Below, in pieces: positions 3,440-53,194 of a stretch of DNA of 64,000 nt (positions are counted from its first letter, which is position 1; every line of letters starts with the position of its first letter). The stretch is from positions 32,049,237 through 32,113,236 of the forward strand of contig NC_088883.1 of assembly GCF_032884065.1 (NCBI RefSeq), written 5' to 3'. The notes beneath the pieces are model-generated. The model was not told where the DNA came from and did no database searches. It saw only the letters and a program-made list of their open reading frames with translations. Made by a program: the position numbers and the translations under genes. This stretch comes from Artemia franciscana (taxonomy: Eukaryota > Arthropoda > Branchiopoda > Anostraca > Artemiidae).

Positions 3440-3613
3440 CAAGTGGTATGTCAACATGGAAAAGTCTGCTACGGAGGACTTCTGCTCGTCAATCAAGAAT
3501 ATAATTTCCGCTACTACAACAAATATTCCTACCGATGTTGATGTTACGGTACCTAGAAGCCTTCACGATATCCAAAGATGCTAAAATATTGGGCCTATTT
3601 AAATATTTGAAAC

Positions 3614-6295: not shown

Positions 6296-7972
6296 AACTG
6301 TACTGCTGCTACTCCCCTTCACGGCAATAGATTCACTATCCCTCTTGTTGATTGTATTCGTTGGGATGCTATCTCTATTACTTGCAATCTTTCAAGCTTA
6401 CTTCAGTGTAGTCTTTGTGATATAAGTAAAACGATCCAGATTAGCTATGGAAAAATTATTTCAAACACAGGGAAGTATAATAGACGTACGCTGGCCAAAC
6501 ATTATTCTACTTTCTGTGATCATTCTGTCCCTTATGCTTCAGGTATTTTCCCCCTTCTTAGTAACGGTATTTAAACTGAATTGGGATAAATTATTTCAAA
6601 GTTGGCAAATTTTTCCTGTATCTTCCACCTTGGACAAAAAGCAAGATTCTTGTTCAAGAATTTTCAGTTCCTGATATAACTTTAAAGTGCGAGATTCTTC
6701 ACAGAAAGCTCTCTAGTACAGCTTCTGTACACGCTTCCCCTCATCACCGTCTTATCTGTTTTTTCATTGATTTTGTGTGCGTATTATTTCTCTCTTTGTG
6801 TTTTTATTTATATTTATTCTTACTCAATCATGTTTACTTTATGTATCGTATGGATGAAAAATAAAACAAACAAACAAACAATAATATAGATGAATTAGGT
6901 CAGAGAGGGATGAATCAATTTCTCTGTAGAGTTAGAGACATTCGAATTGGGAATTGATCAAGATTCACTCCGACAAGAAACTACGATCAGCTAGCAATGA
7001 TACACTGGAGTCTCAAATAAATAAATTAGGTTTTTACCAAAGTATGAGAGAAAAGAATTGAATTCCTTTTTGAGTTAGAGACATATGAAGTGGGAATTTA
7101 TAAAGATTCAATCAAACACACACACTACCACCAGCTAACAAGGAGTATACTAGTATCTAAAAGATATGAATTAGGTTTTTACCAATGTCTGAGAGAGAAG
7201 AATCGAATTATATGAATATGAAAGACATATGATCATAGAGACATATGAAAGAGTCTTTCAATTGAGGGGTGAATTAACACAATAAGTGAATTAGACTTTT
7301 CTTTACCAAAGTCTGAGAAAGATAAATTGATTTTCTTGTATGGTTAGATACATTTGAAAGGGGAATATATCAAGATTCAGACTGACACAGACATTAATTT
7401 CAGCTCACAAGTGGTATACTAGAGTCTGAAGTAAATGAATTAAGTTTTTACCCGCATCTAAAAGAGATGAATCGAATTCATTTTAGAGTTAGAGACATAT
7501 GGAGTTGGAGTATATCAAGATTCTGTAAAACATTTACACTTATTCTAGTTTACAAGGGGTATACTGGAGTCTGAAATAAATTAATTAGGTTATTAACCTA
7601 AGTCTGAGAGAGATAAATTGAATTCTTTTTATGGTTAAAGATATATGAAATGGGGAATTTATCAAAATTCAGTCAAACCTAGACTTTATTATCAGCTCAA
7701 AAGTGCTATACTAGAGTCTGGAATAGATGATTTAAGTTTAACCACAGACAGACAGAGAGCTGAATTGAATTCTCTTTAGAGTTAGAAATACATGAGGTGG
7801 GAATGTATCAAGATTCAGCTGGCAAAGACATTACTATCAGCTAAAAAGTCGTATTCTAGAGTCAAAAGCAGGTGAATTAAGTTTCCTTTTGCCAAAGTCT
7901 AAAAGAAATGAATCAGATTTTATTTAGAGCTACAGACATATGAAATGGGAATTGATCAGGATTTTGTCAAAC
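5489..7972 (+). repeat. Left arm of large inverted duplication (LINE 3' half plus satellite)
   Basis: The reverse complement of 18199-20683 reproduces this 2.48-kb stretch almost base for base, covering the LINE RT end, its CAAA tail and about 1.1 kb of satellite. The outer homology edge is at GAAATATTTAAG (5489), after which the two flanks differ. The inner edge is at CAAAC (7968-7972). Confidence 0.85.
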
Positions 7973-8885
7973 CTTGATAAGTTCCCACTTCATATGCCTC
8001 TATCTCTAAAAAGAATTCGATTCTAATCTCTCAGACCATGATAAAAACCTAATTCACCTATTTCAGAATCTAGTTACTCGATTACCAGCTCTCCTTAGAG
8101 CTGGTAGTAGTGTCTGTGTTTGACTGAATCTCAAAAGATTCCCACTTCATGTGTCTCTAACAAAAAAAAATCGATTTATCTTTCTCTCTCTCAAACTTGG
8201 TATAAACGTAAGTGACCCATCTCAAACTCTAGATTATCACTTGGGAGCTGTTAGCACTGTCTTTGTCTAGTTGAATCTTAATAAATTCTCACTTCATATT
8301 TCTCTAACTCTAAAAAGAATTCGATCCTTCCCTCTGAGACCTCGGTAAAAATATAATTCATATATTTCAAACATTAAATTATTACTTAGGAGCTGATAAT
8401 AGTGCCTGTCTGACCGAATCTTGATAAATTCCCACTTCAAATGTCTCTAACTCTAAAGAGAATTCGGTCCATTTCTCTCAGACTATTGTAAGAAAATTAA
8501 TTCACCTTTTTCTGACCCTAGTATACCCCTTGTCAGCTAGTGGTAGTGTTTGTTTTTTACTGAGTTTTGATAAATTCCCACTTCATATGTTTTTAGCTCT
8601 AAGAAAATTCCATTCACCTTTCTCTCAGAGTTGGTAAAAACGTAATTGTTATATTTCAAACTTAAAATTATCGCTTGGGAGCTGATAGAAGTCTTTGTGT
8701 CTAGCTTAATCTTGATGAGTTCACACTTCATTTGCCTCTAACTCTAAAACGAATTTGATTCATATTTCTCAGACCAAGATAAAAACCAAATTCACCGATT
8801 TCCGAATCTAGTATACCCCTTTACAGCTGGTAGTAGTGTCTGTGTTTGACTGAATCATAATAAATTCCCCCTTCATATGTCTCTA
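6885..8885. repeat. Satellite array, block 1 (about 145-bp monomer), with orientation flip
   Basis: Tandem degenerate monomers carry the landmarks GAATTAGGTTTTTACC, TCTGAGAGAGATGAATCG, AGAGTTAGAGACATATGAAG and GTATACTAGAGTCTGA. The period is about 145 bp as judged from successive GAAGTGGGAAT positions. Monomers read in one direction to about 7972 and in the reverse direction from about 7970 to 8885. No coding potential is seen. The block begins directly at a LINE 3' tail. Confidence 0.85.
7970..8385 (+). repeat. Left arm of second, nested inverted duplication (satellite)
   Basis: This stretch is nearly identical to the reverse complement of 11396-11814. Shared oddities not found in other monomers include GAGCTGGTAATCGAGTAACT (in complement here) and a run of A's near 8161. 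It begins within 3 bases of the end of the larger inverted-duplication arm. Confidence 0.8.
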
Positions 8886-9154
8886 AAAAATTTAATTAAA
8901 ATTAAGTTAAAAAATAAATTAAGTCTCAATAAATAAGAAAAAAGGGGGATGCAATAAGTTAGGGAGAGTGGGATATCGGGGCTCTTATTGGCTTGGAAAT
9001 GGATGACCAAGGGCTGTTCTATTATTGCTTAAAATATATACAACTTTTTAATTTAGTCATTATGCATGCCCCAAAAATACTTAACAATATTTTCAAAAGA
9101 CAAAACATTTATTCATATAATTGTCATGACTTATAATAACTGGGCATTGCTTAT
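8886..9154. other. AT-rich spacer, no gene seen
   Basis: Low-complexity A/T sequence is followed by about 200 bp of unassigned sequence between the satellite and the family A copy. Confidence 0.5.
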
Positions 9155-10030
<876 letters not shown>

Positions 10031-10744
10031 AATTAACAAATTAACAACGGTAGGGCTCCATTCTTCCAATTGTCCGTAAACTTCCCCAATACTTCGGTAA
10101 ACTTTTAGCGCAAAGTTAAGTTGTTTAGACGTTGTTTGAACTAGAAGCACGAATATTTAATCAGTTAAGCTGGATAACCAAAGTGAAATCATGGCCCTTT
10201 CACCATTCCTTGTCCATCTGACTTCCAGATATTTAGCTAAATCACTTCTTAGGCAATCACTCAGTGATAAATCTAGAACCAAATTGTTTTCATTATCAAA
10301 AACGTATGAAAAAAATAGGAGGTGATGAATAAAAATAAAGTAGGTATTTTGGCAATCCTGCTAAATTGTCTTCATTACAAATGAAAAGCAAAGTAGACTT
10401 TTGAATTTAACCAGAAAGAAAAAACGACAAAAAGAATAGAAATGAGCAGAAACAATAAGCACAATGAAAATATACATAAGAAAATGCATAAAATAAATAT
10501 AATGAACAGAGAGAACAAAATGACTGTAATGAATTAAACCAAATATAAAATTGCAAAGAACTTCACCAGTCCGTTTTCAGCGCAAAAGAAAAGAAAATAA
10601 CCTTTTGAGGTTACTGGAACAGGGAGAAAAGAATAAATACGTTAAAAACAAATTTATTATCAAATATATCGAGAACAATTATAAATTGAAAACAATGTTA
10701 TGTTTAAACGTCAATTGCTATGGCGTTAGCTTGTGCATATTGCA
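10031..10744. other. Unassigned AT-rich sequence
   Basis: No gene is supported. The short open frame at 10551-10757 has biased AT-rich composition and no motif. Confidence 0.45.
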
Positions 10745-11153
10745 ATTTTATGAATAGTAACATAGACTGTTTTACATTTTATGGTTAGGGCCAAAGTAAT
10801 AAAGCTTTAGCTTGAACACATGGTGAATTATAAAAGTAACAATACTGATCGATTGCCAAGAAATCAAGAGGGTTCAAGGTTTGAGCCCCCTAGCCCCACA
10901 ATTTTTCCTTGTAAAAACGAAAAAAATACATATGATCAAATTTTCAGTGTTAAGAAATTTAGACCCCCCCCCTAAAAAATATTGGACACAGCCTTGCAGA
11001 AATAGAGAATGATATTGGTTTCAGATAGTCTAAAAGTTTCTAAAACTCAATCAACGTTGTTACGTTTATACTATACTTGGAGCACAAACTAATGTCTAAT
11101 TACTTTACCATTACCATAAAATATAAAACAGACTATGTTGCTATTCATAAAAT
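10745..11153. mobile_element. MITE-like element, about 410 bp, with about 50-bp terminal inverted repeats
   Basis: The left end reads ATTTTATGAATAGTAACATA and on through CTGTTTTACATTTTATGGT (10745-10799). The reverse complement of 11099-11153 gives the same sequence with a few changes (AATAGCAACATAGTCTG). The interior has no ORF. This is the structure of a non-autonomous DNA transposon. I could not define a target duplication with confidence. Confidence 0.65.
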
Positions 11154-11395
11154 TCTCACTAAAATTAGGCTAAAAACTCTTTTTTTTAGATTCTCTATAC
11201 CAAAGGTGCTGGAAGAAGGAACGTACTAAGATTTTTTGACCAGGGACATTCTAATGGTACCTCATAACGCTTCGGAGCCTTTTCCATTCCTGAAGTTACC
11301 ATATAGCATTTTATAGATGGACCTCAGACAAACTTGCAAGAAGCGGGTAGGGGCAGAAGCTTTTTAACAAGTCATCAAACGTCTTCTGTTGAATA

Positions 11396-11814
11396 GTAAT
11401 AATTTAAAGTCTGAAATATATGAATTATATTTTTACCGAGGTCTGAGAGGGAAGGATCGAATTCTTTTTAGAGTTAGAGAAATATGAAGTGAGAATTTAT
11501 TAAGATTCAACTAGACAAAGACAGTGCTAACAGCTCCCAAGTGATAATCTAGAGTTTGAGATGGGTCACTTACGTTTATACCAAGTTTGAGAGAGAGAAA
11601 GATAAATCGAATTTTTTTTTTAGTTAGAGACACATGAAGTGGGAATCTTTTGAGATTCAGTCAAACACAGACACTACTACCAGCTCTAAAGAGAGCTGGT
11701 AATCGAGTAACTAGATTCTGAAATAGGTGAATTAGGTTTTTATCATGGTCTGAGAGATTAGAATCGAATTCTTTTTAGAGATAGAGGCATATGAAGTGTG
11801 AACTTATCAAGGTT
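11396..11814 (-). repeat. Right arm of nested inverted duplication (satellite)
   Basis: This arm pairs with 7970-8385. The two are almost identical, whereas neighbouring monomers differ widely, so the duplication is recent compared with the spread of the array. Confidence 0.8.
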
Positions 11815-14035
11815 CAGTTAGAAACAGACATTACCATCAGCTCCCAAGTCATAATCTAGAGTTTGAAATAAATCACTAACGATTTTACCAAGTCTGAGAG
11901 AGAGAAAGGGATGAATCGAATTCCCTTTAGAGCTTATGACATATAAAATGGGGATATTATCAAGATTAAGTCAAGTACAGAATTCACTATCAGCTCAAAG
12001 TGCTATCAGCTCAGCCCATAGTCTAAGAGCGATAAAGCGAATTCTTTTTAAAGTTAAAGACATATGACGTGGGATTCATAAAGATTCTGTCAAAAACTGA
12101 CGCTACAATTAGCTCAAAAGTAGTATACTAAATTCATCAATCGTTGAATGAGGTTTCAATTATAGTATAGGTGAGAGGAATTGAATTCTATTTAGAGTTA
12201 GAGATATATGAAGTTAGAATTTATCAAGATTCAATCAGACACAGAAACTGCTTTCAGCTCGCAAGTGGTATGCTAGAGTCTGAAATAGATGAATTACATA
12301 TTTACCAAGTCTGAGAAAGATGAAACGGGTTATTTTTAGAATAAGAGACATATGAAGTGGGAATTTATCAATATTTAGTGAAAAACAGACACCACTACCA
12401 GCTCACAAGGGGTATACTAGAGTCTTAGATAGGCGATTTAAGTTTTTTACCATAGTCTGAGAGAGATGAATAAAATTGTTTTTAGAGTTAGAGATATATC
12501 AAGTAGGAATTCATCAAAATTAAGTACGACACAGACGTTACTATCAGCTCCCAAATGATAATCTAAAGTTTGAAGAAGATTAATCTCGTTTTTACCAAGT
12601 CTGAGGAAGAGATGAATCAAATTCTTTTTAGAGCTGGAGAAATATGAAATTTGAATTTATCAAGATTTAGTCAAACGCGGACAATCCTCTCAGATTGCAA
12701 GTGTTATACTAGAGTCTGAAATAGATATATTACGTTTTAACCACGGCTGAGATAGATGAATTTGGTTCTTTTTAAAGTTAGAGACATATGAAGTGGGAAT
12801 ATATCAAGATTCAGTCAAACAAAGACACTACTATCAGCCTACAAAGGGGTATACTAGAGTATAAATTGGTGAGTTTAGTTTTTACAATAGTCTGAGAGAG
12901 ATAAATCAAATTTATCTTAGTGCTAGAGATATATGAAGTTGGAACTTATCAAAATTCAGTCAGAAATATACGCTACTATTAGCTCCCAGGTGATAATCTA
13001 AAGTCTGCAGTAGATGAATTATATTTTTACCAGAGTTTAATAGAAAAGAATCAATTTTTTTCTGGAGTTAGAGACGTATGAAATGGGAATTTATCAAGAT
13101 TCAGTCAGACAGAGACACCACAATCAGCTCCCAAATGATAATATAAGGTCAGAAATAAATCAATTATGTTTTCCCCATGTCTTAGAGAGAGATGAATCGA
13201 ATTCTTTTTTGAGTTAGAGACACATAAAGTGGGAATTTATCAAGATTCAGTCAAATATAGACACTACTATCCGCTGACAAATGATATACTAGAGTCTGCA
13301 ATTGATGAGATAAATTTTTACTAAAGTCTGAGAGAGATGAATTGAATTTCTTTTAGAGTTATAGACATAGGACGTGGGAATCTATCAAGATTCAGTCAAA
13401 AACAAACACTGCTATGATATCAAAAGCGGTGTACTAGATTCTGCAATAGGTGAATTAGCTTTTTACCATGGTCTAAGAGAGAAGAATCAAATTATTTTTG
13501 GAGTTAAAGAAATATTAAGTGGGTATTTCAATTTGAAATGGTACACTAGAGTCTGAAATAGATGAATTAGGTTTTTACCAAATCCTGAAGGGGTTGAATC
13601 GGATTCTTTTTAGAAATATAGAAATAAAAAGTGGGAATTTATCAAGATTTAGTCAAACAGAGATACTACTACCAACTCACAAGTGGTATAATAGAGTCTG
13701 AAATACATGAGTTAGGTTTCCTCTAAGGTCAGAGAGATTTGAATTGCATTCTTGTTAGAGTTTGAGATATCTGAAGTGAGGAAACCATCAAGTTTCAGTC
13801 GAACACGAACTACTACCACCTCAAACGTGGTATAATAGAATCTGAAAAATATTGATTAAGTTCTTACTAAAGTCTGAGAGGGATATATTGAATTCTTTTT
13901 AGAGTTAGAAGTCTGAAATAGGTTAATTATTTTTTTAATATAGTCTGAGAGGAAACCTAATGCATTTATTCCAGACTCTAGCATATCACTTGTGAGTTGA
14001 TAGTAATGTCTTTGTTTGACTCAATTTTTGACTTA
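11396..14035. repeat. Satellite array, block 2 (about 145-bp monomer)
   Basis: About 17 to 18 degenerate monomers of the same satellite read in the forward direction to about 13955. The orientation then flips, and the last part monomer (13960-14035) reads in reverse. The first 420 bp are the right arm of the small inverted duplication. The block ends where a LINE 3' tail (-) begins. No gene is present. Confidence 0.85.
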
Positions 14036-16600
14036 ACTTTAGTTTATTTATTGGTAATATAAAAAACAATACATACACCTATTCCCGTATTACCAGCATG
14101 CCACTGTCTATAAATGATTAATAAGGGGATTTGAGGAATCAATCATTTGATAAAAATATAATAAAATTTGACAAAAATGTCATCAGGCAAAAATATCCTT
14201 GCTAATGTCATTAAATAGAAAAACTAAACACAAAACAAATCAATTAAATCCAAACAACAAAAAATGTAAGCATTTTTTCATCTTCTCAATAGGATAATTT
14301 TAATTATTTTCTTCAGATCAAGATTAACAAAATCAAATCTTCTATATTTTTGGGCAATATAAGAGTATTCTCGATATGGAAGAAAATAAATCACTTCCTA
14401 ATTTTATCACATACATATTATTCACTAAAAATCAAACTGAAATACTAAACAAAGAGCTTTTATCTACTCAATAAGGATTTCTTTTATTCTTTCAGAACAA
14501 ACTTAGCGATATTGATTTATTTATATAGATGGGCAACATTTTCCACACCTCTACACCAATATGTCGCAATGACACTACATCTCTATGGCTGTGGTGAATT
14601 TTTGATATTAGTCAATTAGTTTAAGATGAGGTTGTTTGTTATGAAAGATATTCTGAAGCCGTCTAAAACATATTTAGTTTTCATAGTCCAAGGGGTATTG
14701 GAAAATTGATATACGAGTAAACCAGTCTTGCAACTTGGAGCAGAGATATTTTAGAAACATTCATAACTTTTGCCAGGTGTTATAACTCAGTTATGGAGTA
14801 ATAATATAAAAATTGAGTTTTTATTGCTCGATTTTGTTGTTTGAATATGAACTGCATTATAATTAAATAAATTAGACAAAAAATAGTGCATTCATAGGCC
14901 ATACAAACTGGAAAAATGTATTCTAATCATTTTGTTATTAATGCCATGTCATTAACAGTATCGAAAGTTTTTGAAATATCCACAAAAATTGCTGACGTCA
15001 TGGATCAGAAATCCTAAAATTCCCAAGTGTTTATAATAAAATTAAATACAGCACGTGTAGTGAAATGACTTTTATGAAAACCATATTGGTGACTTGGTAA
15101 CATACCATTGTCATTTATAAATATTGTAATTTTTTCGTGCAATACCTTTTCAAATAGTTTAGAGAATACTGGTAAAATTAAATTATAGCCTGTAGTTGTT
15201 AATTTGACTAGTAGTTATTAAGTTGGGTATTATTAATTTGACATATAACCGGGAAGATTGATTTTAATGCTCTTTTTGGTATTCTATCTACTCCCAGATA
15301 TTTGAGGGGACCAATTGAAATAAATGGTTTTTGTAACTCATGCATTTGTATCATGTCATCCTGAGTGAAAACTGAGTTTACTGTATCAATCACTTAAATG
15401 TTTTCATTTGTTTCAGTTGGTCTAGTATTATTATTAATTTGCCGAGATATAATTGCACCAACAACTGATAATAAGTACAAAATAAAATAGCAATAACTGC
15501 ATCCTTTTTTAACAAAACCCAATGCAGAGAGCTACTAACAATTGAAACTTCTTCTTTGGGTTGTTTCTTATAAGGGGAAACTATCCAATTTATCATTTTC
15601 CATGTTGCTCGTATATCATTTGTATTTAATTCGTAAACAGAATAATATATCTTTTCTTTTTTTAACAGTAGTTCGGGATTTCTTATAAACTTTTTCATTT
15701 TCAAAGGAAGGGAATTTTATTTTCTTTATGTAAAGGCTATTTCTCAATTTTATCGTTTTTTTATTTATCTCAGCTGTGAACTAAAGTGATTCCAAACAGA
15801 CAGATTTTCTAGAATCTTTTGGTTTGACCATATAGCATGAATACATGTCTTGAAGAATTTTATTCATAAATAAAGAATATACACTTGCCACGTCACATGT
15901 TCCATACATCTCTTCCCAATCTATCTACGAAAAAAAGATTTTTAGTTTCTCACCACTTTTTGAAAAAATTAAAAACATTTTCTCGCGAGTTATGGTTTGT
16001 TGTGCTTAAACTACAGCCATTATCACATTCATGCTTGTGTTGACTTAATAGAAAATAATTTAAAAAATGATCATAACCTGGAGATACAAGCACTCCCGAA
16101 AATTTTTGTCGGACAAACAATATTTGAGGCAAAAATATTGTATCGATTAACTTAGCAATAACCGAAGTTAGATTAGCTGGGGTAGTAGTCGAAGGAAAAA
16201 ACCAGCCGATAACCTAGCAATCAGAAATTATAAATTCCCATTATGATTAGACTCAAGAAATATAAGGCTGAAATATCCAACAACAGATTGCACCCTAAAT
16301 AATCCCAATTTATTGCATAAATTTTCTATAGATTCTAATGACTCTGTTACTGGGGAGCTCAGAGGTCTATATACAACTACAAATAATATATCTCCACCAT
16401 ATTTGCACAATCGCGTGATAAGGGATTTAATTAGCCCTTCACACCAAGAAGAGACATCATCTAATATCGACAGAGAGAAATCAGCTCATACATATGGGTC
16501 CTTGCACTTCCTGGCTGAAGGGCCAAGAAACAGAGATCAGCACCGCAGGTACGGACTGTAAAGTCTAATGCCGTATCCTCCATATGGGTCTATACTACCT
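14036..16600 (-). mobile_element. Old LINE inserted in satellite (endonuclease and RT remnants)
   Basis: On the minus strand, an endonuclease piece at about 16228-16410 reads DILFVVVYRPL. It is followed by a linker at 15390-15704 and an RT start at 15208-15393 with PLKYLGVDRIPKRALK. Further RT blocks at about 14930-15180 read FSKLFEKVLHEKI, MLPSHQYGF and IFVDISKTFDTVND. These are the normal block order of a Jockey/CR1-like LINE. Several stops and shifts break it. The 3' part (14040-14900) is AT-rich with no RT blocks that I can see. Satellite in the same orientation lies on both sides, so the LINE appears to have landed inside the array. Confidence 0.7.
15208..15704 (-). pseudogene. LINE ORF2 linker and RT N-terminal remnant
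   Basis: Two adjoining open frames overlap by a few bases. One has ATWKMINWIV, typical of the NPKKTWKIIN-type linker. The other has GPLKYLGVDRIPKRALKSIF, matching the PGxDxIPxxxLK block that precedes RT motif 1 in Jockey/CR1 elements. The break between them is a frameshift or stop. The assignment rests on block similarity read by eye. Confidence 0.6.
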
Positions 16601-16639
16601 TTTTGCATACCACTACGATGAAAGGAATGGAGAGAATAC

Positions 16640-19285
16640 CGACTTCATATGTTAGTGGTGACTCATACCCATTTCAGGAATGAATCTTGGTAAACTCCCC
16701 ACTTCATATGTAAGTGGAGATTCATACCCACTTCAGGAATGAATCCTGGTAAACTCCCCACTTCATATGTCTCTAAATCTCAAAAGAAGCCGATTCATCC
16801 CTCTCCGACTTTGGTAAAAACCTAAATCATCTATTTCAGACTCTTGTAAACCACTTGTTAGCTGATATTAGTGTCTGTGTTTGAATGAATCTTGATCCCC
16901 CACTTCATTTGAAGTTCCCACTTCAATTGTCTCTAACTCTAAACTGAATCCGATTCAACTTTCAGACTTTGGCAAAGATTTTATTCATCTATTTCAGACT
17001 GTAGTATACCACTTGTGAGCTGATGGTAACTTCTTTGTTTGACTGAATCTTGATAAATTCCAACTTCATATATCTTAAACTTTAAAGAGGTTCCAATTCA
17101 TCGCATTCAGAATTTGGCAAAAAACTAACTCGTCTATTTCAGACTGTAGTATACCCCTCGGGAGCTGATGGTAGTGCCAATGTTTGACTGAATAGGAAAG
17201 ATTCCCACTTTATATGTCTCTAACTCTAAACAGAATTCGATTCATCTCTCTCGAACTTCAGTAAAAAGCTAATTCACCTTTTTCAGACTCTAATATAATA
17301 CTACTAGCAGGTGGTAGTCCTGTGTCTAACTGCATCTTGATAAATTCCCGCTTCATGTGTCTCTTCCACAAAAAAGAATCCGAATCATCTCTCTCAGACT
17401 ACGGTAAATACCTAATTAACCTCTTTCAGGCTCTAGTATACCACTTCTGAGCTTATAGTGGTGTCTGCGTCTCATTGAAAGTAGATGAATTCCAGCTTCA
17501 TATGTCTCTAACTCTAAAAATAATTCGATTCAAATATATCAAACTATGGTAGAAATCTAATTCACCAGTTCAGACTCTAGTGTACCTCTCTTTAGCTGAT
17601 ATTAGTGTGTGTTCTTGATTGAATATTGATAAATTCCACGGCATATGTCTGTTACTCTAAAAATAATCCAATTTAGCTCTCTCAGACAATGGGAAAACCT
17701 AATTCATCTATATCAGACTCTAGTATATAATTTGCCAGCTGATAGTGGTGTAGGCGTTTGACTGAATCATGATAAATTCCCTCTTCATTTGTCTCTAACT
17801 GTAAGAAAAATCCGATTTATCTCTCTTTCTGACTGTGGTAAAAACCTAAATCATCTATGTCAGACGCAACTATACCACGTTTGACCTGTTTATAGTGTGT
17901 ACAATTGACTGAATCTTGATAAATTACCCAGTTTATTTGTCTTTGACTCTAAAAAGAATTTGATTCATCTCTCTCTGTCTTTGATAAAAACCCAAATCAT
18001 CAAATTCAGACTCTGGTATACCACTTTTGAGCTGATATTAGTGTCCGCGTATGACTGACTCTTAATAAATTCCCCACTTCATATGTATTTAACTATAATA
18101 AGAATCTGATTCATCTTTGTCTCTCTGACTCTGGTAGAAACCTAGATAATCTATTTCAGACTCTAGTATATCTATTTTCAGCTGATAGTAGTGTCTGTGT
18201 TTGACAAAATCCTGATCAATTCCCATTTCATATGTCTGTAGCTCTAAATAAAATCTGATTCATTTCTTTTAGACTTTGGCAAAAAGAAACTTAATTCACC
18301 TACTTTTGACTCTAGAATACGACTTTTTAGCTGATAGTAATGTCTTTGCCAGCTGAATCTTGATACATTCCCACCTCATGTATTTCTAACTCTAAAGAGA
18401 ATTCAATTCAGCTCTCTGTCTGTCTGTGGTTAAACTTAAATCATCTATTCCAGACTCTAGTATAGCACTTTTGAGCTGATAATAAAGTCTAGGTTTGACT
18501 GAATTTTGATAAATTCCCCATTTCATATATCTTTAACCATAAAAAGAATTCAATTTATCTCTCTCAGACTTAGGTTAATAACCTAATTAATTTATTTCAG
18601 ACTCCAGTATACCCCTTGTGAACTAGAATTAGTGTAAATGTTTTACAGAATCTTGATATACTCCAACTCCATATGTCTCTAACTCTAAAATGAATTCGAT
18701 TCATCTCTCTTAGATGCTGGTAAAAACTTAATTCATTTACTTCAGACTCTAGTATACCACTTGTGAGCTGAAATTAATGTCTGTGTCAGTCTGAATCTTG
18801 ATATATTCCCCTTTCAAATGTATCTAACCATACAAGAAAATCAATTTATCTTTCTCAGACTTTGGTAAAGAAAAGTCTAATTCACTTATTGTGTTAATTC
18901 ACCCCTCAATTGAAAGACTCTTTCATATGTCTCTATGATCATATGTCTTTCATATTCATATAATTCGATTCTTCTCTCTCAGACATTGGTAAAAACCTAA
19001 TTCACATCTTTTAGATACTAGTATACTCCTTGTTAGCTGGTGGTAGTGTGTGTGTTTGATTGAATCTTTATAAATTCCCACTTCATATGTCTCTAACTCA
19101 AAAAGGAATTCAATTCTTTTCTCTCATACTTTGGTAAAAACCTAATTTATTTATTTCAGACTCCAGTGTATCATTGCTAGCTGATCGTAGTTTCTTGTCG
19201 GAGTGAATCTTGATAAATTCCCAATTCGAATGTCTCTAACTCTACAGAGAAATTGATTCATCCCTCTCTGACCTAATTCATCTAT
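16640..19285. repeat. Satellite array, block 3, reverse orientation
   Basis: About 18 monomers of the same satellite read as the reverse complement of block 1 (CTTCATATGTCTCTAACTCT, GGTAAAAACCTAATTCA, CAGACTCTAGTATACCAC). A 62-bp local duplication around CCCACTTCAGGAATGAATC is visible at 16648-16769. The right 1.1 kb belongs to the large inverted duplication. No coding potential. Confidence 0.85.
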
Positions 19286-22025: not shown

Positions 22026-22071
22026 TCTATATATATATATAAAAATAAGTTGTCTGTGTGTGTGTGTCGAG

Positions 22072-22172
22072 TGACGTCATGTTTGTGTGTCGACTGACGT
22101 CATGTTTGTCGACTGACGTCATTATAAGGATTGAGCTGTATGCGTCATGAAGTTGTCTGTCGACTGACGTCA
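22072..22172. promoter_or_regulatory. Cluster of four TGACGTCA palindromes (CRE/ATF-type)
   Basis: Perfect TGACGTCA occurs at 22072-22079, 22095-22102, 22114-22121 and 22165-22172 within a short repeated unit TGTCGACTGACGTCATGTTT. This octamer is the classical CREB/ATF binding site in animals. Here it may simply belong to the Helitron's 5' repeat; binding is inference. Confidence 0.5.
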
Positions 22173-22194
22173 TGTTTGTCAACTGATGAAATTA

Positions 22195-22575
22195 CATACC
22201 GGGACACAAATGACGACCGAGACACAGGGAATATAAATGACGACCGGGAACCTCAAAGAGAAATTACAGACTGGGACACCCGGACACAAATCACGACCGG
22301 GACACAGGGAATATAAATGACGACCGGGACACAGGGACATAACTACAACGGGGACGCCGGGGGCACAGGCGGTATATATAAATGCCGACCGAGACACAGG
22401 GATTGTTCGAGTAGAAACTACAGACCAGGACACAAATGACGACCGGGACACCGGGACACAGGGAATGTAAATGACGACCGGGACACTCAAAGAGAAATTA
22501 CAAACTGGGATACCGTGACACAAATGACGACCGGGACACAGGGAATATAAATGACGACCGGGACACAGGGACACA
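22195..22575. repeat. Helitron-internal minisatellite, about 27-bp unit
   Basis: The unit GACGACCGGGACACAGGGAA followed by TATAAAT is tandemly repeated with variants (CACCGGGACACAAATGACGA). The same repeat recurs at 27918-27975 and 28140-28460. Long open frames through it are a consequence of its period being a multiple of three and are not genes. Confidence 0.85.
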
Positions 22576-22576
22576 T

Positions 22577-22735
22577 CATTAGAATAATGAGGTATAGATC
22601 TGAATACGGATTGTTTTTCCCATGGACAATTATATGTTGCATGTTCAAGAGTCAGTAAACCTGACAATCTATTTATATGCACAGACAATGGGACAGCGAA
22701 GAATGTTGTATATTCGTATGTTTTACGTAGTTAAA

Positions 22736-22736
<1 letters not shown>
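22577..22736 (+). pseudogene. Helitron helicase C-terminus remnant (copy 1)
   Basis: Three-frame reading gives ...GIDLNTDCF, then [19 protein letters not shown] and LYIRMFYVVKN. These align with the end of Helitron Rep/Hel helicases, where [26 protein letters not shown] is typical. Stops and shifts are present. It is nearly identical to 28500-28660. Confidence 0.6.

Positions 22737-22738
<2 letters not shown>

Positions 22739-22794
<56 letters not shown>
22739..22794. repeat. (TA)n microsatellite at Penelope-like element 3' junction
   Basis: About 28 TA units directly abut the pseudo-LTR of the minus-strand retroelement. Confidence 0.9.
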
Positions 22795-22800
<6 letters not shown>

Positions 22801-22835
22801 TGAAAAGAGAAATCACCAATGCTACAGCACAAACA

Positions 22836-22874
<39 letters not shown>

Positions 22875-23239
22875 ACAGAAGGAGAAAAGGAAGACTGTTT
22901 TCCTAAATTAGTGATTAATATAGACCAGCACTTGAATGAGGCCTTAACCCTACTCATCCATACAATCACATAGGTCAAACAGCATAGCCACACACAATCA
23001 ACCATAAAGAATAATCCATGGACAGGCAGTCATGTCGTCAATAAGTATAAGTCGTCATTTACCAAACAATAGAAAAAATAATATAGACAAATAATTCAGA
23101 GGCAACACCCAACATAAGGGCTCATCAGGAGAATACACTGGCCTATATAGGGTTTCGCCACTCTAAATTCTCTACCCAGCACAGTGTTGTGGCTACCACA
23201 GAATATCCATGGCATCCCCGCGTCAGGTATCACCCCCAA
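22795..23239 (-). repeat. 3' pseudo-LTR of the Penelope-like element
   Basis: This is the direct repeat of 26540-26982. It includes an A-run (about 35 A on +), GAGACAGAAGGAGAAAAGGA, a CCTATATAGG palindrome near 23142 and ends CACCCCCAA. On the element strand it lies downstream of the ORF. Confidence 0.9.
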
Positions 23240-23524
23240 AATACATGCCTATGAAAAAAAAAAAAACAGCAAATGTAAAACAACCAAGTAAAACCAAAAC
23301 AAGCTTATCCTGTTAATATATCCCTCCCTTTAGCAACAATAGGTAAACTAAATATTATAAATTTTACCAAATCACAAATATTAACACATTGCAAAAAACC
23401 TGAATGAACTAAACAATTATATAATTCATCTTTACCATGTGGCTAATTTTTTAAAAATTCCGCTCAAATAGAAACACAATTCAAAATAAATGGCGCTGTG
23501 ACAACATTTCTCGAACCTCCGAAA

Positions 23525-26284
23525 TTAGTTAAAAATTTCTTTAAGTATTTCTAGATAATTCTTTTGATATTTATTTAAAAGTTCGTTATAATGAAAACTA
23601 AATTTTTTAAATTGCCAAGTTAATTTATTTGCAGAAAAACCTCTTGATATCAATTTTTGGCTTAAGATTTTACATCTATTTTTAAAATCAATATAATTAC
23701 TACAAATCCTTGCATAACGAAGTAACTGTGAGAAAAACGCTGAATATGTGATATTTGAGTGTATATTACTTTCAGGGAATGGGAAACTAATCACTTCAAA
23801 ATCAAAATCATCCGTTTTATTATACATTTTAAAACTTAATTTATTATTATCACAAATATTAATATTTAAATCTAAGAAATGATCTTCATGACCAGCGCCA
23901 TGACTAGGCTCAAGAATAAGCTCTGATGGATATATATTTTTAGAAATATCAATGAAATCCTTACAATTTAAGACCAAAATATCATCTAAATATCTTTTAT
24001 TATTTGACAAAGCATGTTTTAAATTAATTGGATTATTCTTATCCATCATATATTTATATTCTAGTTGACTTAAAAACAAGTCAGCTATAAATGGGCTGGC
24101 ATTCCCCCCCATGGGAATTCCCATAATTTGCTTGTACAAATCACCCCCAAATCTTATATAAGTATTGTATAAAACAAATTCCAATAACTCAAAAATCATA
24201 TCCAAGCTGTAACATCTCAAGTTAACTGTAGTATTAAAGCAGTTTGTCCATATGGCTTTTTTATTATAACTGTCTATTTTCAAGAACCTTTTACTAGATA
24301 AGAGGAAAGATTTCTTTATAACAGTTTTTAAATTATCAAACACTAAATTGAGTGATAAATTAGTATACATTGTCGCAAAATCGAAAGACTCAATTCTTTT
24401 AGCTGAAACCATTGTTAAAGAATCTATCACCTGCAGTGAATTATTAACACTCCAATATGGATTAAAATTCGAAAATTTTTTAATACCAGAACAATAGGTT
24501 TTAAGTTTATTTACAATTTCCTTTAAAATTAAAGAGAGGTCAGTAGCAGCAATGCGGGTTGGACATTTAGCTGCTCCAGCAATAAACCGTGGTTTAGGGG
24601 GATTCTTATGAAATTTTACAGTCCAATATAGGAAAGGGAACTTTTTATCATTGTCATTTATTTTAATATTAAAATTTTTAAAAAGTATTTCTTCAGTCTT
24701 TTCAATTAAATTCTCATCCTCTATATTTACCTTTTCATAAACATTAGTTGTGCATAACTCCCTTTTTAAGATATCACAATACAGCTTCTGACAAATTATG
24801 GCAAAATTATTATTAGCTTTATCCACTGGCACAATTACAAATTCGTTCTTTAGATTAGCAATTGCTTGTTTAACCTTCGCATTATAAAATAATGATTTAG
24901 TGTTACTATTTTTTAAGTTAGAATATATTTTATTTCTTACTCTACTAATAATTAAATTCTTCCAACTTTGAAAACTCTCTTTATTTTTATTCTCTTTCTT
25001 ACACCACTTATCAATAAATAAATCAAAATCATTTTCCAAGCCATCAAGAACACTCGATGGTTTCAGATGATGAGAAAGACGGAAATTTGCCCCTTTATTC
25101 ATTATAATTTGAAGATCATCTTGCTTTATTATTGACAAGTCCCCTGTTATAACATGTTTGTAAGTAGGATTTACAAATGGGCCAAGTTGCTTACAATTAC
25201 AAACCGGTTTCCAATTTATATCGCTATCTAGTTTTTTTAGTATTAAATTATAATTAAAAATAATTTGCCCAATAGTTTTTGAAAATTTATAAGTTAAAAC
25301 TGGACTATCATTATAATTTAAATTACTAGGAAGGGCCTGTTTCACATGCCGCTGATTTAAAATTTCTGGTAAATTAATATCTTCAATCTGCTTACAAGTA
25401 AAATTAATAGGTAAATATAATCTGTTATCCTTATTACTAATCTTATCGAACTTCTTCTTTTTTGAAATAAATTTCGTTTTAGTTAGAATGCAAATTGTAT
25501 CACATATTACTTTAAAATTATAATCAAGAGCTGTATTATTCTTCACAATCCAGAAAAGTTTGATTAAATTCCTCTTGGATAAATTATTTAGACACTTTAT
25601 TACAGAAATCATACCCCTAGATTCAAGTAGCTGGCATAGATCTATAGAAAGCATATGTACATCTAATTCATTTTTTCTATTATTTTTCCTATGTCCTCTC
25701 GATCGTTTTTTACGTTTAGTAGGACAAGTAAAAGAAGGATGGTCCATAAAACCATCAATACATTTAACAACAACATGAGACATGTCACCATATTTTGCTA
25801 CACGATCATTTAACCCAAAAGGATAAGCTGTACCAAGAGTATGGATCCAGAAATCCTCCTGTTTACGTAGTCTATTATTCTTCTCTTCTTTATTTAAATT
25901 TTCTAATTCTAAATTTTCTAAAATTGTGACAGTTATATCTGATATGGAACATTTACCATTACTACAATGTTGAACTAGATAGTTATTAGTTTTTTCATTA
26001 TTAACTGTTGTCTTGTGTCCAGAAAATTTTTTATATATATTATTAGTTGTTTCCCCCACATATTGTAGGCAGCATTTATTACATTCTAATAGGTAAATTA
26101 CATTAGTTGTTCTACAATTAACATTACCACGTAACTTGCATGCAAATTTTTTATTATACAATGTACTTTTAACAGAAGTCCGTGGGACAAAATGATCTTG
26201 GCAAAGAAAACAACGACTTTTACACTTACTAACTTTCAAAAAATCGTTCCGAGTTCCGAGGCTAATATTTGTGTTTTGTTGCAT
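23525..26284 (-). CDS. Naiad-type Penelope-like element protein: N-terminal GIY-YIG nuclease plus reverse transcriptase
   Basis: The 919-residue protein nicks target DNA and copies element RNA. Residues about 57-160 form a GIY-YIG nuclease: VIY at 62-64, YVG at 75-77, the zinc-type CCHH set (C68, C71 or C72, H90, H106) and E143. Where many relatives have the catalytic Arg, a Lys-rich YKKF is seen. A K/R-rich patch follows (190-205). The CxC linker motif CNC is at 362-364. RT blocks follow: VPVDKANN (486-493), KPRFIAG (564-570), FDFATMYTN with D635, MGIPMGGNASPF (721-732) and RYLDDIL with D767/D768. The ATG at 26284 gives full nuclease coverage. The 3' UTR is 285 bp. There are no internal stops, so no selenocysteine codons as in some Naiads. 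Confidence 0.9.
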   Translation of the reverse strand: MQQNTNISLGTRNDFLKVSKCKSRCFLCQDHFVPRTSVKSTLYNKKFACKLRGNVNCRTTNVIYLLECNKCCLQYVGETTNNIYKKFSGHKTTVNNEKTNNYLVQHCSNGKCSISDITVTILENLELENLNKEEKNNRLRKQEDFWIHTLGTAYPFGLNDRVAKYGDMSHVVVKCIDGFMDHPSFTCPTKRKKRSRGHRKNNRKNELDVHMLSIDLCQLLESRGMISVIKCLNNLSKRNLIKLFWIVKNNTALDYNFKVICDTICILTKTKFISKKKKFDKISNKDNRLYLPINFTCKQIEDINLPEILNQRHVKQALPSNLNYNDSPVLTYKFSKTIGQIIFNYNLILKKLDSDINWKPVCNCKQLGPFVNPTYKHVITGDLSIIKQDDLQIIMNKGANFRLSHHLKPSSVLDGLENDFDLFIDKWCKKENKNKESFQSWKNLIISRVRNKIYSNLKNSNTKSLFYNAKVKQAIANLKNEFVIVPVDKANNNFAIICQKLYCDILKRELCTTNVYEKVNIEDENLIEKTEEILFKNFNIKINDNDKKFPFLYWTVKFHKNPPKPRFIAGAAKCPTRIAATDLSLILKEIVNKLKTYCSGIKKFSNFNPYWSVNNSLQVIDSLTMVSAKRIESFDFATMYTNLSLNLVFDNLKTVIKKSFLLSSKRFLKIDSYNKKAIWTNCFNTTVNLRCYSLDMIFELLEFVLYNTYIRFGGDLYKQIMGIPMGGNASPFIADLFLSQLEYKYMMDKNNPINLKHALSNNKRYLDDILVLNCKDFIDISKNIYPSELILEPSHGAGHEDHFLDLNINICDNNKLSFKMYNKTDDFDFEVISFPFPESNIHSNITYSAFFSQLLRYARICSNYIDFKNRCKILSQKLISRGFSANKLTWQFKKFSFHYNELLNKYQKNYLEILKEIFN

Positions 26285-26539
26285 AAAAAGTTATTGAAAA
26301 TAAATCCAAAACAAACCAACATCCAAATCAAAATCCAACAATCAAAGTCCAAAAAACATGCCAAGGTCAATAGGTCAATAAATACATAAGCAAAAAGATG
26401 AAAGAACATGTAATTTGCATAAGTGCCATCTCACCAATAATTAACAATATCAGGTTAAAAACCTGGACCAGGGTAAAGGTCTGTCGGGGAGAAAACTAAA
26501 AAAAATTTTCTCCACCAGCACTGGATCCAACCTGGAATA
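26285..26539 (-). other. 5' leader of the Penelope-like element between pseudo-LTR and ORF
   Basis: About 255 bp between the upstream pseudo-LTR and the ORF start hold no other gene. Near 26500-26515 a short palindromic AAAATTTT lies beside GGAGAAAACT and TTTTCTCC, giving a weak hairpin. Confidence 0.6.
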
Positions 26540-26580
26540 ATATCATGAAAAGAGAAATCACCAATGCTACAGCACAAACA

Positions 26581-26617
<37 letters not shown>

Positions 26618-26978
26618 ACAGAAGGAGAAAAGGAAGACTGTTTTCCTAAATTAGTGATTAATATAGACCAGCACTTGAATGAGGCCTTAACCCTACTCAT
26701 CCATACAATCACATAGGTCAAACAGCATAGCCACACACAATCAACCATAAAGAATAATCCATGGACAGGCAGTCATGTCGTCAATAAGTATAAGTCGTCA
26801 TTTACCAAACAATAGAAAAAATAATATAGACAAATAATTCAGAGGCAACACCCAACATAAGGGCTCATCAGGAGAATACACTGGCCTATATAGGGTTTCG
26901 CCACTCTAAATTCTCTACCCAGCACAGTGTTGTGGCTACCACAGAATATCCATGGCATCCCCGCGTCAGGTATCACCC

Positions 26979-26982
<4 letters not shown>
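26540..26982 (-). repeat. 5' pseudo-LTR of the Penelope-like element
   Basis: This is the second copy of the 443-445-bp direct repeat, upstream of the ORF on the element strand. Apart from the A-run I found no difference from 22795-23239. The outer end passes directly into (TA)n. Confidence 0.9.

Positions 26983-27046
<64 letters not shown>
26983..27046. repeat. (TA)n microsatellite at Penelope-like element 5' junction
   Basis: About 32 TA units separate the pseudo-LTR from a Helitron-type 5' sequence (AAAAATAAGTTGTCTGTG). Confidence 0.9.
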
Positions 27047-27055
<9 letters not shown>

Positions 27056-27433
27056 GTTGTCTGTGTGTGGATCTGTGGATGGATCAGGTGACGTCATGTT
27101 TGTTCGCATATGGCGTCTGAATTATTTCACACTAATACAAAAGAAGAAAAAAACTAAAAAAGGTAAAAACTACAAAAAAAACTAATAAGAAAAAAAAACT
27201 AAAAAAGCTAAAAAACTAAAAAAAACTAAAAAAAGGTAAAAATCTAATAACTAAAAAAAAACTGAAAAAAATAAAAAAAGGCAAAAACTACAAAAAAAAA
27301 GCTAAAAAACTAAAAAAACTAAAAAAAAACTAAAAAAAGGTAAAAAACTAAAAAAAACTAAAAACTAAAAAGGAAAAAAACTAAAAAAAAGGAAAAAACT
27401 GAAAAATAAAAGAGAAAAAGAAAACTAAAAAAT
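26983..27433 (+). mobile_element. Helitron 5' portion (end 2)
   Basis: The TATATAAAAATAAGTTGTCTG start and GTGACGTCATGTTTGT are shared with end 1. They are followed by CGCATATGGCGTCTGAA, CACACTAATACAAAAGAAG and a long degenerate CTAAAAAA-rich stretch. The terminal TC is hidden in or lost from the (TA)n run. No coding sequence. Confidence 0.65.
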
Positions 27434-27870
27434 ATGAATAAATATATATAAAAATAAGTTGTTTGTGGGTTATGTCTGTCTGTCTGTCTGTCGAGTGACG
27501 TCGTGTTTGTCCGCATATGACGTCTGAACTATTTCACACTAATACAAAAGAAGAAAAAAAACTAAAAAAGGTAAAAACTACAAAAAAAACTAAAAAGAAA
27601 AAAAACTAAAAAAGCTAAAAAACTAAAAAAACTAAAAAAGGTAAAAAACTAAAAACTAAAAAAAACTGAAAAAACTAAAAAAAAGGCAAAAACTAAAAAA
27701 AAACTAAAAACTAATAAAAAAACCAAAAAAGCTAAAAAACTAAAAAAACTAAAAAAACTAAAAAAAGGTAAAAAACAAAAAAAAAACTAAAAACTAAAAA
27801 AGAAAAAACTAAAAAAAAGGAAAAAACTGAAAAATAAGAGAAAAAGAAAACTAAAAAAATATTAATAAAT
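27140..27870. repeat. A-rich CTAAAAAA/GGTAAAAAC degenerate repeats
   Basis: Irregular tandem CTAAAAAA, GGTAAAAACTA and GAAAAAACT units occur in two blocks (about 27140-27420 and 27545-27870), and similar sequence occurs at 27980-28130. They belong to the Helitron copies and have no coding meaning. Confidence 0.8.
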
Positions 27871-28139
27871 ATAAAAAATATAAATATAAATATAATATAA
27901 ATTAGCAATCAACAAAGCACCGAGACACAAATGACGACCGGGACACAGGGAGTATAAATGACGACCAGGACATAAGTAAAAAAAAAAACTAAAAAAACTA
28001 AAAAAATGGTAAAAACTACAAAAAAACTAAAAACTAATAAAAAAACTAAAAAATCTAAAAATCTAAATAAACTAAAAAAGAAAAAAAAGAAAAAAGGAAA
28101 AAAATAAAGGAGAAAAACAAAACTAAAAAACGAATGTAT

Positions 28140-28457
28140 ATACAGACCGGGACACCGGGATACAAATGACGACCGGGACACAGGGAATATAAATGACGAC
28201 CGGGACACAGGGACACAACTACAATGGGGACGCCGGGGGGCACAGGGGGATATAAATGACGACCGGGACACCGGGACACAAGGAATATAAATGACGCCCG
28301 GGACACTCAAAGATAAATCACAGACTGGAACACCGGGACACAAATGACGACCGGGACACAGGGAATATAAATGACGACCGGGACACAGGGACATAACTAC
28401 AAAGGGGACGCCGGGGTGCACAGGGGGATATATAAATGACGATGGCGACTCAGGGAA

Positions 28458-28460
<3 letters not shown>
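28140..28460. repeat. Helitron-internal minisatellite, second block
   Basis: The same GACGACCGGGACACAGGGAA unit as at 22195-22575, with variants including GGGGACGCCGGGG. It lies immediately before the helicase remnant in both copies. Confidence 0.85.
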
Positions 28461-28774
<314 letters not shown>

Positions 28775-28921
28775 CAGGTGGGACATAGGGACACAACTAC
28801 AATGGCGCGTAACTAATATGGCGCGTAACGACTTACGCGCGCGGGGGGGCTAGGGGGGGGGCGCGAAGCGCCCCCTCCAACTAGGTGTTGGGGTTCGCGC
28901 GAAGCGCCACCCCAACAGCTA

Positions 28922-28922
<1 letters not shown>

Positions 28923-29015
<93 letters not shown>

Positions 29016-29163
29016 TTTCACAGGTGGGACACAGGGTCACAATTACAATGGCGCGTAATTAATATGGCGCGTAAAGACTTACGCACGCGGGGGGGCTAGG
29101 GGGGCGCGAAGTGTCCCACCAACTAGGTGTTGGGGTGGCGCGAAGTGCCACTCCAACAGCTAG
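28923..29163 (+). mobile_element. Second Helitron 3' end, nested or tandem
   Basis: A (TA)n run (28923-29013) leads to CACAGGTGGGACACAGGGTC, GGCGCGTAA repeats and a hairpin (about 29129-29158, TGTTGGGGTGGCGC / GTGCCACTCCAACA), ending AGCTAG then T at 29160-29164. It parallels 28660-28922. Either the Helitron before it inserted into the TA run of this one, or the two are tandem. Confidence 0.7.
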
Positions 29164-29450
29164 TTTATGCATAAAAATGTAAAGAATTTGATCAAAAACC
29201 TAGTCAGCTCACTGTTAAAAGCACCAACTTTTAGGAACAGGTAATATCTTTTTAAACGTTAGTTTCTTTGAAAAAGGCTCATTAGAGAACGGTTGACATC
29301 TTCGATCTACATTATTTTTTTGCATTCATCATGGCAGTACCCTCAAAGTGACGTCATGTTGTTTCTGAATATCATAATTCACTATACGTCATTTTCACTA
29401 TATTACTTGTGATTCTGGATGCATCAACCACTTGGTAAGAAGTAACGAAT
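29164..29450 (+). promoter_or_regulatory. Probable promoter and 5' UTR of the histidyl-tRNA synthetase gene
   Basis: The 287 bp lie between the last Helitron end and the ATG. A perfect TGACGTCA is at 29349-29356, about 95 bp upstream of the ATG, and a half-site TACGTCA lies near 29385. An in-frame TAA at 29436-29438 shuts the frame upstream of the ATG at 29451. A GTAAGA at 29435 resembles a splice donor. No clear TATA box was identified. Regulatory use is inference. Confidence 0.45.
29349..29356. promoter_or_regulatory. CRE/ATF-type TGACGTCA upstream of HARS
   Basis: A perfect palindromic octamer sits in GTGACGTCATGTT, the same context as in the Helitron 5' ends. Animal CREB/ATF factors bind this site; occupancy here is untested. 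Confidence 0.45.
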
Positions 29451-30941
29451 ATGTATAGTATAAAAAAAATCCTAATTGGAACTACAATTGTGGGTGTCAT
29501 TTGTCTTGCTGCTATTAGAAAATACCTTTGTAATAATAAAAAAAAAGATCTCAAAGCAGCCATCGAGGATACCAATATTGCTCAATTAGCAAAACTGGTT
29601 GTGAAAACACCAAAAGGAACCCGTGATCACAATCCCCATCAAATGAGTCTCAGAGATCCTGTATTTGAAAAAATTAAGGTGATTTTCAAACGATTTGGTG
29701 CTCCTTGTATAGACACCCCAGTTTTTGAGTTGAAAGAAATTCTGACTGGAAAGTATGGTGAGGAGTCAAAGCTGATATATAACTTAGAAGATCAGGGAGG
29801 TGAAAAGCTGAGCTTGAGATATGATTTGACTGTACCTTTTGCTAGATACCTTGCTATGAACAAAATAACCAATTTCAAAAGGTACCAAATTTCCAAAGTG
29901 TATAGGAGAGATAATCCAGCTATGACTAGAGGTAGATTCAGAGAATTTTATCAGTGCGATTTTGATATAGCTGGAAAATATGATACGATGATAGCTGATT
30001 CAGAATGCGTTGCTATTATTGGCAGTATTCTCAAGGCATTAGGATTGCCAGATTTCACAATTAAAATAAATCACAGACTTATACTAGATGGAATATTTGA
30101 CGTCTGTGGAGTCCCGGTGGGTAAGTTTAGGACAGTTTGTTCCTCTGTTGATAAACTCGATAAAAGCCCTTGGGAGGAAGTTAGGAAAGAAATAACTGAA
30201 CAGAAGGGGATTGCTGAAGAAGTTGCAGACAAAATAGGAAAATATGTCAAGTTGAATGGAGGTAAAGAGCTAATAGATGAGCTTTTAGATAATGAAGAGT
30301 TAAGCAGATCATCTAGCGGTAAGCAGGGATTAGAAGAAATGAAGCTGTTATTGCAGTATTGCGACTTCTTGAATGTTTCCCAAAATATAGTGTTCGATCT
30401 GAGTTTAGCCCGCGGGCTTGACTACTATACCGGTGTGATTTATGAAGCAGTTTTAAAAGCCACGGTGGTGAAAAACGGAAAAAATGTTGGGATTGGAAGT
30501 GTTGCAGGTGGAGGTCGGTATGATAACCTCGTTGGGATGTTTGATCCAAAAGGTAAACCAGTTCCATGTGTTGGAGTGAGCATAGGAGTAGAACGTATTT
30601 TTGCATATTTGGAAGCCAATGCTGCTACAAAGCCTCGCACAACTGAAACTCAGGTTCTTGTTTGTTCCGCCCAGAAGAATCTCTTGGAGCCAAAAATGAA
30701 AATTGTTACTGAGCTAAGAGAAGCGAACATCAACGCAGAAATTTTTTACAAAGCAAATCGAAAAATTCAATCGCAGCTGCAATATGGTGAAGAAAATCAG
30801 ATTCCTCTGGCAATAGTTATTGGTAACTCAGAAATCGAAAAAAATGTTGTGACAGTTCAAAACATTGTCACAAGAGAAAAAGAAAAAATCCCACGGGAAA
30901 GGCTAATCGAAGAAATAACAGAAAAACTGAAAAAATTGTAA
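29451..30941 (+). CDS. HARS1: Histidyl-tRNA synthetase, uninterrupted, with N-terminal hydrophobic segment
   Basis: The 496-residue class II synthetase charges tRNA-His with histidine using ATP. The core starts at [11 protein letters not shown] (52-62) and closely follows animal [12 protein letters not shown] (89-96) and [17 protein letters not shown] (121-137) lead to the motif 2 region [20 protein letters not shown] (151-170). [10 protein letters not shown] (319-328) and [12 protein letters not shown] (353-364) are the histidine-binding blocks. [12 protein letters not shown] (373-384) is motif 3, and 398-496 is the anticodon-binding domain. All catalytic blocks look intact. The usual WHEP domain is absent. 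Instead residues 6-23 form a hydrophobic segment followed by K/R residues, suggesting a membrane anchor or mitochondrial-type leader. The body has no introns. AATAAA lies at 30995-31000. It could be a retrogene; the mitochondrial or second-copy role is inferred. Confidence 0.93.
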
Positions 30942-53103: not shown

Positions 53104-53194
53104 TGGTATATCAATTCAGCACCTGCTGTTTTGCAGCGAGCTGTTCCTTGAGCACCTTGCCCTGCTTTTTCAAATAATTTTTAACCTGGGTATA

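Follow-up and report, generated by a model that had tools for sequence, protein, structure and literature searches.

Among Penelope-like retrotransposons (Penelope-like elements, PLEs), Naiads reportedly combine an N-terminal GIY-YIG nuclease, a CxC linker and a C-terminal reverse transcriptase (RT) in one open reading frame (ORF). Their copies are said to occur in tandem, with 'pseudo-LTRs' (LTR, long terminal repeat), and in inverted arrangements, to be associated with microsatellites and to have no canonical hammerhead ribozyme; some Naiads are said to contain selenocysteines. Chlamys elements, which reportedly have a permuted domain order and no CCHH motif of the kind found in PLE nucleases, are said to inhabit green algae, spike mosses and slime moulds. 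Endonuclease-deficient, Athena-type PLEs carry no nuclease, lie at chromosome ends and are associated with simple repeats. PMC12477816 reports Chlamys elements from the brown alga Ectocarpus. Here we describe an element in a 64,000-nucleotide stretch of contig NC_088883.1 ('the window', 34.5% GC). We interpret it as a single insertion from a young PLE family of Naiad type and high copy number, whose host is very probably Artemia franciscana, a reading that, together with the target mechanism proposed below, we hold at a probability of about 0.72.

The whole element occupies window positions 22799-26981 on the minus strand, and perfect (AT) arrays abut both of its outer ends. One of these unstranded arrays, (AT)30 at 22739-22798, adjoins the 3′ end of the element and is part of a Helitron-like 3′ region; the other, (AT)33.5 at 26982-27048, lies on the 5′ side. 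The element comprises a full-length unit of 3,745 nucleotides (22799-26543, minus strand), which starts with ATATTATTCC and ends with TTTTCATG, and an upstream, 5′-truncated tandem copy of 438 nucleotides, the 'pseudo-LTR' (26544-26981, minus strand), whose sequence is that of the full unit's 3′ end save for the length of an A-run. The direct repeats of about 440 bp, the left starting at 22799 and the right ending at 26981, thus have zero mismatches apart from an A-run of 35 versus 33. A first-pass annotation, made from the letters of the window, had described such identity and had named many differences between the repeats as counter-evidence; only the A-run length differs, and its view that the insertion is recent agrees with this. 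The homopolymer tract concerned lies in the 3′ region of the unit, at 22837-22871 and 26582-26614, and its length differs between copies. It measures 10-113 nucleotides in 51 of the 67 measured tracts of related loci and was read as 1 in the remaining 16, in at least some of which the cause is an extra GTG after the tract.

The window protein was used as the reference for a search of the genome (1.27 Gb in 6,468 contigs), which gave 7,294 first-look candidates. Fifty matches, ranked by complete ORF, were scored; 39 of them were read and merged into 36 loci, and 11 were left out. There are therefore at least 50 genome matches, and all 50 scored share 99-100% identity with the window protein; of these, 48 have no internal stop and two have one. 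The same unit, whole or nearly so, stands at each of the 39 matches read, so its recurrence is not a matter of chance. From these loci we extracted 41 ORFs, including some that lie in upstream tandem units: 37 run without a premature stop, two have a single premature stop and two are frameshifted. The closest of them, among the loci read, differs from the window ORF at 6 of 2,754 sites. A stricter filter retained 36 ORFs ending at codon 919 or 920, for which mean nonsynonymous divergence (dN) was 0.0032 and mean synonymous divergence (dS) 0.0167, a ratio of 0.19 (120 of 630 possible pairs). The window copy and a relative outside the assembly, L001, are separated by 14 synonymous and 6 nonsynonymous changes (P ~3e-5, assuming that three quarters of changes are expected to be nonsynonymous). 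These sequence comparisons indicate a young family with a coding sequence maintained by purifying selection. When the pseudo-LTR was used as a DNA query against the genome, nothing matched, but that search skips very common words, so the result is no sign of rarity.

L001 (JAGXLU010000084.1) is a 3.7-kb contig in the Halanaerobiales metagenome-assembled genome GSL_CB2_7, in which 'GSL' presumably stands for Great Salt Lake. It holds an intact ORF of 919 amino acids and shows 31 mismatches to the window copy over 3,694 aligned bases (98.9% identity); the contig is apparently eukaryotic contamination of a public bacterial genome. We found no relative in phages or plasmids, and the viral contigs yielded neither a relative nor a match to a 27-mer from the pseudo-LTR. 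One RT-motif pattern match among the viral contigs (L002) proved to be an unrelated contig.

The 919-codon ORF (23525-26284, minus strand) has an ATG start, a TAA stop and no in-frame TGA. Its GIY-YIG domain (residues 62-137; 25874-26101, minus strand) is followed by a CNC motif of the CxC linker type (residues 362-364; 25193-25201, minus strand), with a cysteine at each of the two positions in 39 of the 41 ORFs, and by the RT core (residues 557-768; 23981-24616, minus strand) with KFHKNPPKPRFIAG, FDFATMYTNL, QIMGIPMGGNASP and YLDD (765-768). FDFATMYTNL and QIMGIPMGGNASP lie between CNC and YLDD, in the order expected of an RT. The first-pass identification of a PLE with its nuclease ahead of the RT is thus borne out.

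GIY-YIG is the sole Pfam match across the whole protein; against a cutoff of 22.6 bits, L001 scores above it, at 25.4, and the window copy below it, at 19.4-19.8. The CCHH residues C68, C71, H90 and H106 are present in both aligned proteins, and H90 recurs in 40 of the 41 genomic ORFs, H106 in 39. Residue 86 is lysine in the window copy and arginine in 39 of the 41 ORFs, the sole other exception being a frameshifted ORF; Lys86 is private to the window copy. We take Arg86 to be the conserved catalytic arginine of GIY-YIG nucleases. The RT is divergent: the RT piece alone matches RVT_1 with an expect value (E) of 0.045, below the cutoff of that model, and the NCBIfam group II RT model gives E 2.4e-5 with a score of 23.6 bits, whereas its cutoff is 300. 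In a check for a fingers insertion, the distance from the motif A aspartate to the motif B′ glycine was 91 residues, versus 64 in the window's own long interspersed element RT. Solved structures gave no meaningful match for the whole protein or for a two-sequence profile, and the RT piece retrieved only a retron-type RT at E 0.5, amid ribosomal proteins. AlphaFold run on the two-sequence alignment returned a pLDDT (predicted confidence score) of 29.8, too low for the model to be of use.

At least one head-to-tail junction is present in 31 of the 36 loci read, and its sequence is CATG-ATATTA[T/C]TCCAG in all 43 junctions, the hyphen marking the unit boundary; these junctions set the limits of the unit, and in the window the boundary CATG-ATAT lies at 26540-26547 (minus strand). 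The truncation point of the upstream copy, by contrast with this constant end, is scattered along the unit from locus to locus, leaving an upstream repeat of anything from 61 nucleotides (L038) to a whole unit. Two full units follow one another at L036+L037, L007+L044, L015+L016, L021+L046 and L025+L026, and the upstream copy is inverted at L041 and L024+L047. The 'pseudo-LTR' is therefore the remnant of a 5′-truncated upstream tandem copy, in agreement with the description of PLEs in PMC8969392. The first-pass annotation was right that direct repeats flank the ORF, but these are not a fixed repeat, and a truncation point that varies by locus cannot serve as an LTR-style clock. Two near-identical direct repeats around an ORF could also be read as the true LTRs of an LTR-type element, dating its insertion. 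The variable truncation of the upstream repeat behind the same boundary in 43 of 43 junctions refutes this reading, and the coding content also speaks against it (a GIY-YIG domain and a weakly matching RT, with no Pfam match in the ORF protein to a protease, integrase or RNase H); we give it practically no credence.

Copies within a locus resemble one another far more closely than copies from different loci. Over the 3′ 375 nucleotides, the mean difference is 0.1% within a locus (22 of 30 pairs identical) and 1.03% between loci (101 of 1,740 pairs identical), although the within- and between-locus pairs are not independent of each other. The two mismatches counted in the window's own pair are flank letters, as the compared segment extends beyond the truncation. 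The contrast between 0.1% and about 1.0% fits the use of one multimeric template per insertion.

The target junction of the family is unusually clear. An outer 3′ end could be read at 28 of the 36 loci, and all 28 have CATG-ATAT; the CATG is fixed by construction, as an end was counted only when the 38-nucleotide terminal piece matched to its last letter, but the following ATAT is not. The (AT) run after the 3′ end is uninterrupted for 13-194 nucleotides at 24 of these 28 ends, and the remaining four carry 4-6 nucleotides of AT. By comparison, 1.5% of all window positions begin an ATAT (1.1% when arrays are excluded), and (AT) arrays of at least 20 nucleotides make up 0.8% of the window, the two flanks of the element included. 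The eight loci with no usable outer 3′ end are L005, L020, L022, L027 and L035, which enter another copy and leave the stretch, L013 and L017, which enter N, and L010. The first-pass annotation had noted an association with microsatellites, and across the family this holds chiefly on one side. Only 3 of 25 readable outer 5′ ends, the window copy among them, adjoin an AT run of at least 10 nucleotides, and an array lies within 60 nucleotides in 4 of 25. The unpaired counts, 24 of 28 for the 3′ side versus 4 of 25 for the 5′ side, differ with a Fisher P of 3e-7. At the 22 loci with paired flanks, the array is 3′ only in 15, on both sides in 3, on neither in 4 and 5′ only in none. The flank reading is less sure at L011, L012, L018, L025+L026 and L038, where the 5′ end lies inside a T tract; at L011 an AT array beyond the T-rich stretch on the 5′ side was left uncounted.

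No target duplication was recognized at the 22 loci with both flanks. Candidates that we discounted were AT runs at three loci, a 12-nucleotide match at L039, a 20-nucleotide match inside divergent Helitron-like repeats at L029, and divergent repeats at other loci.

Many targets of the family are one Helitron-like repeat. In the window, this repeated sequence occupies 22027-22745 and 27031-29181 and contains tandem repeats of CCGGGACACAGGG, (AT)n, a C-terminal peptide that resembles PIF1, and a GC-rich hairpin with a CTAG end. We infer the Helitron-like label from the GC-rich terminal hairpin with CTAG and from the PDB matches of the C-terminal peptide, which number six (E 1.2-1.4) and are all PIF1 helicases; the peptide had no Pfam match. 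A comparison of targets with their paralogues covered up to five matches per locus, about 0.3 Mb of sequence and 70 nucleotides upstream; some of the matched rows may be close to another element copy. Among the matches listed, (AT)n occurs at the same point in 5 of 5 paralogues of the window copy's target, one of which (window 28660-28771) clearly lacks the element and is flanked on either side by Helitron-like sequence. The presence of (AT)n in these paralogues, one of them element-free, implies that the tract is mostly target rather than product.

We hypothesize that the family selects its targets by pairing between primer and template. The template would be a multimeric RNA transcribed from a source locus with tandem units, and the element protein would use its GIY-YIG nuclease to nick (AT)n DNA. 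The nicked ...ATAT end could then pair with the AUAU that the RNA carries at its unit boundary, from which target-primed reverse transcription would begin inside the template; CATG-ATAT is thus the proposed start site on tandem RNA. Reverse transcription would copy one unit, enter the next unit upstream and halt at a random point. The second junction would form elsewhere; what is left of the AT tract would usually be lost, and no recognizable target duplication would result. RNA around the unit boundary has a folding z of -2.48, with 3 of 200 shuffles as good, which weakly suggests a structured start site.

An internal start of reverse transcription has been shown in vitro with another, purified PLE, described by its authors as the first with activity in vitro (PMC11167929). 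In that system, however, the RNA start site is not homologous to the cut DNA. The precedent of this anole PLE, with AT-rich cleavage and a start at a non-homologous RNA site, allows another account of our junctions, in which an ordinary nuclease preference for AT-rich DNA chooses the target and ATAT is merely the last letters of the element, with no role in pairing. That account is possible but doubtful in our view: perfect (AT) runs at 24 of 28 ends go beyond mere AT-richness, and all 28 ends start in register with the first letters of the unit itself.

Several observations weigh against the pairing model or the wider interpretation of the family. L010 ends at unit position 3587 rather than at CATG, and stands outside the 28 readable ends. 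Unequal crossing-over or gene conversion after insertion could equally give the identity seen within loci. The ranking by complete ORF biases the sample, which is hardly informative on short copies. The paralogues are also less uniform elsewhere than at the window target: L011 has (AT)24 where its paralogues, among the matches listed, have none, and the paralogues of L004, L007, L021 and L032 are mixed, some having a short, imperfect or absent AT run. These last cases are what would be expected if the element made or lengthened the tract itself. A telomerase-related RT might slip on AUAU, using the boundary as a telomerase-like template on nicked (AT)n and adding AT repeats to the primer before copying, so that the 3′ microsatellite would be partly the product of the element; the 3′-only position of the array at 15 of 22 paired loci, with none 5′ only, would follow as well. 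We consider such addition improbable, as four 3′ ends carry just 4-6 nucleotides of AT, the listed paralogues of the window target, one of them clearly element-free, hold long (AT)n, and ordinary microsatellite slippage also varies such tracts.

Elsewhere in the window, an old relative, 5′-truncated and represented by its 3′ end only, lies at 2115-2645 on the plus strand and is 78-80% identical. A possible retrocopy encodes histidyl-tRNA synthetase in a single open frame (29451-30941; 496 amino acids) whose N terminus has a hydrophobic stretch. Fragments of a non-LTR retrotransposon that include endonuclease and RT domains occupy 51658-54367, and several arrays of ~145-bp tandem repeats, apparently in both orientations, lie within 6929-19272.

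How PLEs choose their targets and where copying starts are poorly known. In the family described here, many near-identical copies, most of them intact, are available from an easily kept animal, and the combination of a constant unit boundary with a one-sided, in-register (AT)n junction allows a direct test of whether microsatellites are targeted by primer-template pairing. The window copy has many counterparts and is not the best one to work from. It had been called intact and put forward as a useful type sequence; its reading frame is indeed open, but lysine replaces Arg86 of the GIY-YIG domain. Because Lys86 is private to this copy and many near-identical copies exist, it is a poor type sequence.

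We found no description of the family in the literature searched on Naiad or Penelope elements or on Artemia, which is not proof of its absence from print; 'Penelope' is absent as a word from the main text of two A. franciscana genome papers (one of them PMC11492255). Rfam gave no match at gathering score and no hammerhead among five matches up to E 10, and a scan with hammerhead descriptors found none. CTGATGA and CGAAAC do occur in the pseudo-LTR, but their order and spacing fit none of the three hammerhead types scanned, and an older copy reads TTGACGA; we rejected this candidate.

Compared with described systems, the element fits a Naiad-type assignment, which rests on domain order and sequence motifs. 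The nuclease is N-terminal to the RT in one ORF, the CxC motif lies between them and the nuclease has the CCHH residues that reportedly separate Naiads from Chlamys elements; copies are tandem, with pseudo-LTRs, or inverted, the outer 3′ ends favour microsatellites and there is no canonical hammerhead. The likeness to Naiads extends from the domain layout and single ORF to copy arrangement, microsatellite association and the lack of a hammerhead, whereas the Artemia element differs in having no in-frame TGA and in a target of (AT)n, to which it is joined in register with the ATAT that opens its unit. It shares a permuted domain order with Chlamys elements, but CCHH (C68, C71, H90, H106), reportedly lacking in Chlamys, is present in the Artemia element. 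Athena-type elements resemble it in their PLE RT and simple-repeat association; they have no nuclease and sit at chromosome ends, whereas the Artemia element has a nuclease and occupies internal microsatellites. The nuclease position (residues 62-137) also separates it from canonical Penelope and Poseidon elements, in which this domain is C-terminal. Poseidon PAc of Anolis carolinensis, as described in PMC11167929, is similar in its tandem units, pseudo-LTRs, AT-rich target and internal initiation of reverse transcription, the last of which is proposed for the Artemia element. PAc, however, has a C-terminal nuclease, a protein-assisted hammerhead ribozyme and a start site that is not homologous to the cut DNA, whereas in the Artemia family the putative start site and the target would share the same ATAT.

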